Shown here: in pieces, positions 62,323 through 63,603 of the stretch
Numbering within the stretch: position 1 is the first letter of the stretch
How the letters are laid out: each line of letters starts with the position of its first letter
Source of the DNA: Isoetes taiwanensis
Lineage: Eukaryota; Streptophyta; Lycopodiopsida; Isoetales; Isoetaceae
DNA length: 64,000 nucleotides
Assembly (NCBI GenBank): GCA_021234155.1
Contig: JAJEKV010000431.1
Coordinates: 142,649 to 206,648, forward strand
Reading direction: 5' to 3'
Translations under genes and position numbers: made by a program
The notes under the pieces: generated by a model
What the model saw: only the letters and a program-made list of their open reading frames with translations
Told to the model about the DNA's origin: nothing
The model's database searches: none

Positions 62323-63603
62323 TCAGTTATTTACAAGGTTCAAGGCGTTCTCCCTTGATGTGCACAGCAAGATACATATCTGCCTCATGAGGGGTAACCC
62401 TCTTCGCGTGCACCGTGCGGGCCGTTGAATCTTCAAAATGCTTTACTATATGCGCTTCGGCCGCCTCTTGTAAAACAATGACATCTCGTCGGTCAGCGCG
62501 TATGCGTGTTGTATTCTTGTATGACCCGGCGGACCAAAGCTGGGGCGGGCCGGGGAATCGAGTCCGTAACTCTTACGGAAGTGGCGGATCTCCTTGGTGC
62601 CCCATCTTCGACTTCTTCTTCTTGCTCCGCTTCTTCCCTGGTGCTCGGGGAGGCTTGGGCTTTGGTGGAGGGGCTTGATTAATACGGCTCTTCGTCGGGT
62701 GTCCGCCTTCAATCGTTTCTCACCGGTGCTCCACGGTAATATCGTTGTCGCCTCCCACCTTGCCATATAAGCATTGTGTTCCACGATCCTCTTGATAGAC
62801 CTTTGGGGTCTATCACATATGCTTCCCGTTGCGGCGCGGGGCTTTGACTCTATCACGTCGGAAAAGGTGGGGGCTTCGCTAACTATCCGGTCTCCTCCCC
62901 TTCTTGGGCTACATGCTCCGGGACCTCTTCCTCTCGAGGGGGCTTTGAAGAGCTTACCCCGTCTGCGCCCGACACGTAGTCTCCATCCAGTCGTCGGTGG
63001 TGGGCGGAGTCTCCCCTCCCGGCGGCTCGTTGATGGCGGGACCCTCGGCTCGCTTCGGGCCTTTACCAGCTTCCTCTTGCACGCCTTCACGGCTTTGGCC
63101 TTCCTCTTCTTGGGTGGCTGTAGTCGGGTCGTCTTCCGACTCTTTGTTCTCGCTCCGTCGGCTCTTTAACCGTGCTTGTGGGCCCGGCGTGTGAGGTCGA
63201 CCTCTTCTTCGGGGTGAGTTCGGTAGTTCTTTGCTCCTCTCTTCCTGCTCCTCCTCTGCGGGTGGATCTCAACACAGGGTTGCTCTGGGTTGTTGATGGG
63301 TCCCCTTTGTTCCCTCTGCTCTTCCTGTGGGTTGGCGTCCTCCTGGTGTTGCTCCTGCTGCTGCCCGCTTCTTTCCTCTTCCCGCGCAATTTCGTCGAGG
63401 ATCTGGTTCATGACATCTGGCCGGTCATCCTCCAAGAGCTCTGTGTGGTCGCTCCTGTCCGAACCTGCATCCTCGCTCGAAGAAGATTCGCCTTCATGGA
63501 GAAGGCGTTCTCGAAGGATTCTCTGAAAGAGGCCGGAGCCGCTGGCGCTGGAGGATCCGCTTCGGCTAGGCTTCCTTGCAGTCTGTTTTGTACGTGCCAT
63601 CAT
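62323..63603 (-). pseudogene. retrotransposon-borne histone H3-like gene with canonical H3 tail (element B copy)
   Basis: The protein opens [13 protein letters not shown]. After the Met this is the histone H3 tail, including the Lys4 and Lys9 contexts (Ser10 is Pro here). A Ser-rich, acidic and Gln/Glu-rich linker follows (SSSSEDAGSDRSDHTELLEDD, QQQEQHQED), then basic stretches. At the 3' end shifting frames give the H3 core: GTKEIRHFRKSYGL, LVRRVIQEYNTHTR, VLQEAAEAHIVKHFEDS, VHAKRVT and HIKGER, ending at TGA 62323. Tail and core in one 1281-bp gene means a real H3-derived protein with a long insert. An in-frame TAA near 63166 and at least two frameshifts inactivate it. Histones package DNA; the role in an element is unknown (cDNA or particle chromatin, targeting, or decoy of H3 modifiers). 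A minus-strand TATA box lies 111 bp upstream. Confidence 0.9.

Follow-up and report, generated by a model that had tools for sequence, protein, structure and literature searches.

Chromoviruses in the genome of the lycopod Isoetes taiwanensis carry a gene for histone H3. The H3 open reading frame (ORF1) sits between the 5′ long terminal repeat (LTR) and gag and occurs at hundreds of places. Purifying selection acts on it, and the encoded histone fold is as long as that of H3 and shares many of its residues. The stretch of 64,000 nucleotides analyzed here, which we call the window, contains two chromoviruses, A and B. Both carry H3, and in both the H3 gene has decayed.

A decayed histone H3 fusion gene in chromovirus B

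ORF1 of chromovirus B is a decayed histone H3 fusion gene at positions 62323 to 63603 of the window, on the minus strand, and was delimited by tblastn with an intact relative; its coding part runs from 63600 to 62345. The features and position given for it in the preliminary description were recovered, with the strand now specified. Translation of positions 63571 to 63600 (minus strand) gave codons for a sequence that matches the H3 tail exactly as far as K9, as had been claimed, and this tail, read from 63600 downwards, opens an open stretch of 145 amino acids. The residue that follows K9 is Pro and not Ser. At the other end of the gene, positions 62345 to 62509 (minus strand) encode the C-terminal part of the H3 core, with the motifs LQEAAEAHIVKHFEDS, VHAKRVT, and IKGER, and match host H3 with 49% identity (E 6e-11), in agreement with the histone fold described there before. 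The order within ORF1 is the ARTKQTARK tail, an acidic Ser/Gln/Glu linker, a basic stretch and the H3 core, and the reading frame is frameshifted. The acidic linker previously reported is thus present in the window copy, where Ser-rich and acidic stretches sit between the tail and the pieces of the core. When the intact relative was compared with the window by tblastn, ORF1 was covered by matches in several frames at 63600 to 63172 (69% amino acid identity) and 63055 to 62345 (40%). The H3 core is spread over three frames with stops, and the window copy of ORF1 is a pseudogene.

Two adjacent ATG codons (MMARTK) occupy positions 63603 to 63598 on the minus strand, and by inspection the second has the better context. 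Because the window copy and 14 of the 17 relatives that we fetched begin with MM, the mature N-terminus of ORF1 of this type is uncertain, and whether the protein has a free H3 terminus at Ala1 depends on which of the two ATGs is used. Chance resemblance to H3 was ruled out by the match of an intact copy of the window type to the Pfam histone model (PF00125, 7e-27, 94.6 bits against a cut-off of 26.4), a check that had been proposed at the outset. A plasmid search with the window stretch gave no match.

The remainder of chromovirus B follows on the minus strand in the order H3 ORF1, ORF2, gag-pol and 3′ LTR. ORF2 (60120 to 61630) is decayed and was located by tblastn, the query being the intact ORF2 of another copy; this query had no Pfam match and no relative among viral contigs. 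The gag-pol region (55163 to 59948) is likewise decayed; its domains, as read in the unbroken frame of a relative, are gag, protease, reverse transcriptase (RT), RNase H, integrase and chromodomain. The 3′ LTR (52631 to 54290) was identified by blastn with the LTR stretches of two window-type copies fetched from elsewhere in the genome, copies A and B (84 to 89% identity). The 5′ LTR is absent from the window, because the window stops at the end of contig C143, beyond which this LTR would lie.

Repeat comparison also revealed a hairpin repeat in chromovirus B. One near-perfect hairpin of 67 nt lies upstream of ORF1 (63781 to 63857, minus strand), and two further copies lie in the spacer between ORF1 and ORF2 (minus strand), the first, at 62143 to 62200, being decayed and the second lying at 61928 to 61999. 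RNA folding of the upstream hairpin, the best copy in the window, gave −45.9 kcal/mol (z −5.4). Copy B of the window type carries two of these 67-nt hairpins ahead of ORF1 and two more in the ORF1-ORF2 spacer; copy A has both spacer hairpins, and its matches ahead of ORF1 are weaker and partial. An Rfam scan of positions 52000 to 64000, which included the hairpin, returned nothing at the gathering threshold, and blastn of the 67-nt hairpin against the 10 copies of the second element family described below (family 1) gave no match. The hairpin may serve internal initiation or the handling of an RNA message with several ORFs, although this is a guess.

A second H3 chromovirus and other features of the window

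The H3 gene of chromovirus A, a family-1-like element, was missed in the preliminary description. Its ORF1, on the plus strand at 18370 to 19659, is decayed, was found by its match to ORF1 of family 1 and consists of the N-terminal domain of that family and an H3 core (19351 to 19653) that is 62 to 68% identical to four family-1 cores and 59% identical to host H3. It is followed on the same strand by ORF2 (19870 to 20680), 44% identical to a family-1 ORF2, and by a gag and protease region (21668 to 23238); the later parts of the element are rearranged. Chromovirus pol fragments at 15248 to 16133 and 23247 to 23549 lie on the minus strand, opposite to gag of chromovirus A, and are either rearranged or part of a second element.

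Three other features of the window were noted. Frames at 50527 to 52123 (minus strand) contain the motif EKCPGMDGIP, which we take to be that of a LINE-like reverse transcriptase. A gag-like frame of another Ty3/gypsy element was recognized by eye at 38036 to 38938 (minus strand), and long open frames of up to 696 amino acids lie at 7966 to 11771 (plus strand).

The H3 gene lies between the 5′ LTR and gag in intact copies

We searched the genome (1,658,258,908 bases in 1110 contigs) with the Pfam histone model, which yielded 8705 first-look candidates, of which 150 were scored. The first 15 entries resemble ordinary H3 genes, and the seven of these that were read (L001 to L007) have the full H3 tail. 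Among the 150 scored matches, 36 had open frames of at least 400 amino acids, so that many copies retain open frames. We then fetched 20 kb around 10 family-1 copies with long frames and, for the window type, 19.5 kb around 2 copies. The H3 ORF is flanked by a pair of LTRs in 10 of these 12 copies (8 of 10 in family 1 and both of the window type), which places the gene inside the element and upstream of gag, as originally proposed; no LTR pair was found within the 20-kb stretches around family-1 copies L009 and L017. The paired LTRs are about 1.6 kb long and 90 to 97% identical, which suggests transposition activity in the past only. Family-1 LTRs have the ends TGTGACG...CGTCACA and are followed by TGGTATCAGAGC, presumably the initiator tRNA-Met primer site, while a polypurine tract (CTAAGGAGGGGAGAA or close variants) lies upstream of the 3′ LTR. 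In copy B of the window type, GTCACA closes the 5′ LTR, and the beginning of this same primer site comes next. Target duplications of 5 bp were present in each of the four copies whose two outer ends could be placed (L011, L021, L023, and L027), a count that covers family 1 only.

In one copy of the window type, none of the three frames is interrupted: ORF1 has 427 amino acids, ORF2 lies in a frame of 528 and gag-pol in a frame of 1608 amino acids. Pfam models for Retrotrans_gag, RVP_2, RVT_1, RNase H, rve, and Chromo (1.8e-9) matched the 1608-residue frame. The domain order with its C-terminal chromodomain, the LTRs with TG..CA ends, the primer site, the polypurine tract and the 5-bp duplications all fit a Ty3/gypsy chromovirus, and this is what the host element is. 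Its length is about 11 to 17 kb in the four copies with measured ends. ORF1 is about 405 to 461 amino acids long in the 27 frames that were read, and its histone fold aligns with H3 from end to end; PF00125 matched family 1 at 3e-43, beside the window-type match given above.

Copy number and linkage to ORF2

A 35-nt probe to the core of the window type, searched with at most 3 mismatches, matched 432 places genome-wide (228 plus 204), and the reversed control matched none. A single-copy host pseudogene beside the element was ruled out by this number together with the LTR-bracketed copies. Neither of the results named beforehand as contrary to the proposal was obtained: the H3 gene does not stand outside the element, and other copies of the element carry it.

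A search for window-type ORF2 gave 15567 first-look candidates, of which 82 places were scored. In at least 31 of the 82, an ORF1 match lies on the same strand, its start 1.68 to 2.07 kb upstream of that of ORF2, and at least 4 further places have an H3 core among the matches listed, giving at least 35 of 82 in all. We also read 8 further ORF2 places directly, taken in list order except that C1053:4710335 was passed over. The core was where expected in 7 of them and was absent from the place on C1077; in all, 43 of the 82 places were covered. As the 35 are positives picked from the matches listed, 7 of 8 is the less biased figure for linkage. Together with the number of core places, it bears out the expectation of many copies located between LTR and gag.

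Purifying selection on the H3 core

We estimated dN/dS by the Nei-Gojobori method pooled over pairs, with a codon bootstrap. For the window type, 13 of 17 copies were used, L038, L043, L044, and L045 being omitted for local frame damage. The ratio was 0.043 (0.021 to 0.071) for the core, 0.050 for the tail (12 codons) and 0.149 for the whole ORF; it was 0.088 for the mid-region, 0.195 for the linker and 0.348 for the Ser-rich part behind the tail. Within family 1, the PRF subtype (7 copies) gave 0.042 for the core, 0.104 for the N domain and 0.225 for the linker, and the MET subtype (3 copies) gave 0.018 for the core. Synonymous sites were saturated between the PRF and MET subtypes, which hence have no point estimate. 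All these absolute values are biased downwards, because the copies were chosen for long frames, but that choice does not explain the contrast of core and tail with the linker. The H3 cores of both families are under strong purifying selection, with dN/dS of about 0.04, as would be expected if the gene were maintained in the way initially suggested (dN/dS below 1). Residues K4, K9, and P10 are present in all 17 window-type copies, and ARTKQTARK is entire in 15 of 17, with R2C and A7T found once each.

Two element families and the origin of their H3

The two families differ in the parts that precede the fold. Window-type ORF1 (17 copies) starts with ARTKQTARK and Pro, which takes the place of S10, has no recognizable H3 tail beyond this point and continues through a long acidic and basic linker into a core of 89 residues. 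Family-1 ORF1 has an orphan N-terminal domain of about 195 amino acids, a Gln/Glu-rich linker and a basic stretch before the H3 core; it lacks both the terminal H3 tail (ARTKQTARK) and the K18-K27 stretch, and only a buried TGGK remnant is left, in the basic stretch. The full H3 tail is absent from both families. A search of 5.8 billion proteins with residues 1 to 215 of family-1 copy L013 gave 919 candidates, all with E above 0.001. When the whole of ORF1 was the query, gene models containing H3 dominated the results (4586 and 1544 proteins passed), and among the best 120 of each set no match spans more than 51% of the ORF1 query.

The pol regions of family 1 and the window type are about 80% identical; for the RT piece, six copies of the PRF subtype reach 81 to 84% identity to the window type, and two of the MET subtype, with broken frames, reach 71%. 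Between the families, gag is 47 to 63% identical and ORF2 only about 21% (best hit E 3e-10), and window-type ORF1 outside the core had no BLASTP match in family 1. The histone fold is therefore the part that the two families have in common beyond gag and pol. C110, H113, R116, D123, and L126, residues with known roles in H3, are kept in both families in the alignment, with single exceptions such as L033.

Family-1 cores are 83 to 88% identical to host H3 over 89 residues (three copies), and the MET subtype has H87 and L90, which we assume to be the residues of plant H3.3. The two window-type cores compared are 57 to 60% identical to host H3 and have Pro at position 63, where host H3 has Arg. 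The rates at which pol and core have diverged contrast: the two family-1 subtypes have 85% identical pol and 84 to 85% identical cores, while window-type pol is about 80% identical to that of family 1 and yet its core is only 53 to 56% identical.

Provisional CENH3 sequences of rice and Arabidopsis were used in the identity, substitution and tree comparisons. The rice sequence is 61 to 63% identical to the window type and 63 to 64% to family 1, and the Arabidopsis sequence 55 to 56% and 52 to 54%, respectively. Of the 36 substitutions that separate window-type copy L029 from host H3, 11 are common with Arabidopsis CENH3 and 11 with rice CENH3; the corresponding counts in family 1 (Arabidopsis, rice) are 3 and 1 of 15 for L013, 3 and 1 of 14 for L019, and 0 and 0 of 11 for L021. 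The window type groups with CENH3 at 98/93 in a tree of 89 columns with long branches and the provisional CENH3 sequences as outgroups, and a single clade of element H3s was rejected with CENH3 included (p 0.026) and not without it (p 0.154). Compared with the provisional CENH3, loop 1 of the window-type H3 has the length found in H3 and lacks the CENH3 Trp. No host CENH3 was recognized among the 150 scored of 7980 candidates found with the provisional rice core, judged from the match rows and not from their sequences, and the best rows include host H3 places. The contrast between pol and core identity points the same way as the tree, to separate acquisitions, and two separate H3 acquisitions by the families are plausible.

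DISCUSSION

Our searches of an open-access library found no description of H3 in a retrotransposon, and to that extent the claim that no such lineage had been described holds. The capture of H3 by transposons is not in itself unheard of, since fungal DNA transposons with H3-like genes are known (PMC3538342, PMC6710886); the part not found in print is capture by a retrotransposon. The hAT elements of Pyrenophora tritici-repentis (H3L) and Pseudocercospora fijiensis resemble the Isoetes elements in that a mobile element multiplies an H3-like gene, the P. fijiensis gene being derived from a transcript or retrocopy, and most hAT H3 copies in P. fijiensis and its relatives are truncated and inactivated (PMC3538342, PMC6710886). 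The hAT elements are DNA transposons with terminal inverted repeats, whereas those of Isoetes are LTR retrotransposons in which a full H3 fold is fused to long N-terminal parts and is under purifying selection. Transduplication by a hAT-H3L element was ruled out by the LTR structure and by a Pfam scan of ORF1, ORF2, and gag-pol, which found no transposase.

With plant chromoviruses (type II) the Isoetes elements share the LTRs, the primer site TGGTATCAGAGC and the order gag-PR-RT-RH-IN-chromodomain, but they have two extra ORFs before gag, the first with an H3 fold, and reach the length given above. Another parallel, among plant LTR retrotransposons with additional ORFs, is an orchid Ty3/gypsy family with an RNA-demethylase domain, in which a host-derived domain is kept as an extra ORF through several subfamilies, although domain and function are different (PMC9289625). 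No histone ORF is named in the accessible parts of PMC7264820, PMC6317226, PMC9289625, and PMC13317346, and the word “histone” is absent from the main text of two Isoetes genome papers. The encoded protein resembles cellular H3 and CENH3 in its fold of H3 length and, in the window type, in the tail through K9; it differs from them in its total length, its long linker and a tail that is cut after K9 or, in family 1, replaced.

We infer that the H3 variant encoded by ORF1 acts on chromatin in partnership with host H4, a functional reading that we consider to have an about even chance of being right. The protein would enter the nucleus by means of its basic stretches, the usual histone chaperones would bring its fold together with host H4, and the protein would join nucleosomes or tetramers on new element DNA or at target sites. 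The part before the fold would be the effector, that is, the H3 tail through K9 with Pro and the acidic linker in the window type, and the orphan domain with the Gln/Glu-rich linker in family 1. The likeliest benefit would be to hinder the marking or silencing of chromatin by the host; the altered tails (P10 in the window type, the lost tail in family 1) could make nucleosomes that host silencing handles poorly. One single purpose for the tail is unlikely, because the families handle it differently. The low identity of the window-type core to host H3 and its Pro at position 63 also count against this reading. In addition or instead, ORF1 might tether the integrase, whose chromodomain lacks, by inspection, the first and third aromatic cage residues and so is of a type without a methyl-lysine cage. 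Two papers give the partner of such type II chromodomains as unknown (PMC6317226, PMC3350952), and ORF1 is a candidate for it.

Other readings of ORF1 have to be weighed against that of a nucleosomal H3 variant. The protein could be a soluble histone mimic whose tail and linker titrate out silencing enzymes or reader proteins, with the fold serving only to keep it in the histone pool. The tail through K9 of the window type is about as constrained as the core, on only 12 codons, and the invariant P10 fits this as well, since Pro cannot be phosphorylated and a bound reader would not be switched off there; but family 1 keeps the fold without this tail, and we regard such a mimic as unlikely. We give slightly less credence still to a packaging protein that uses its fold and basic stretches to condense element RNA or cDNA in particles. 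The histones of some giant viruses condense their DNA, basic stretches do precede the fold and ORF1 adjoins other structural genes, but the conservation of C110, H113, R116, D123, and L126 in both families exceeds what condensation needs.

A CENH3 origin of the window-type H3, or its mimicry of CENH3, with insertions directed to centromeres, appears improbable to us, despite the substitutions that L029 has in common with each provisional CENH3 and the grouping in the tree. Overall identity is not distinctive, family 1 being equally close to rice CENH3, loop 1 is not that of CENH3, and the tree rests on long branches, few columns and provisional sequences, with no host CENH3 recognized for comparison. 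The 64 listed window-type places on 18 contigs of known length are also unclustered (p 0.32 and 0.33), which speaks against strict centromere targeting. Least credible, and very improbable in our judgment, is the passive-passenger reading, in which a single captured copy of host H3 would have been multiplied while serving no purpose. Capture of H3 by a transposable element followed by decay is known from fungal hAT elements (PMC6710886), but dN/dS of about 0.04 in two families, the many long open frames and the occupation of one position in the element by two distinct types of H3 all argue against it here.

A further and rather doubtful extension is that H3 is an exchangeable accessory gene, the source of which was an H3.3-like (replacement-type) H3 in one family and, in its sister, an H3 that was either CENH3-like or much older. 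Both would then write their own nucleosomes, and the parasite would edit the host histone code at or around its own DNA. In Isoetes, a parasite-borne histone gene is under strong selection at hundreds of places, beside a chromodomain of a type whose partner is unknown, which suggests that these parasites may come equipped with a chromatin protein for coping with, or escaping, the chromatin of the host. Transposon silencing works largely via marks on histone H3. If the proposed role is true, a self-supplied H3 whose tail is replaced, or cut after K9 and followed by Pro, would be a direct chromatin countermeasure against host silencing, and the two families would form a natural experiment showing which portions of H3 are indispensable.
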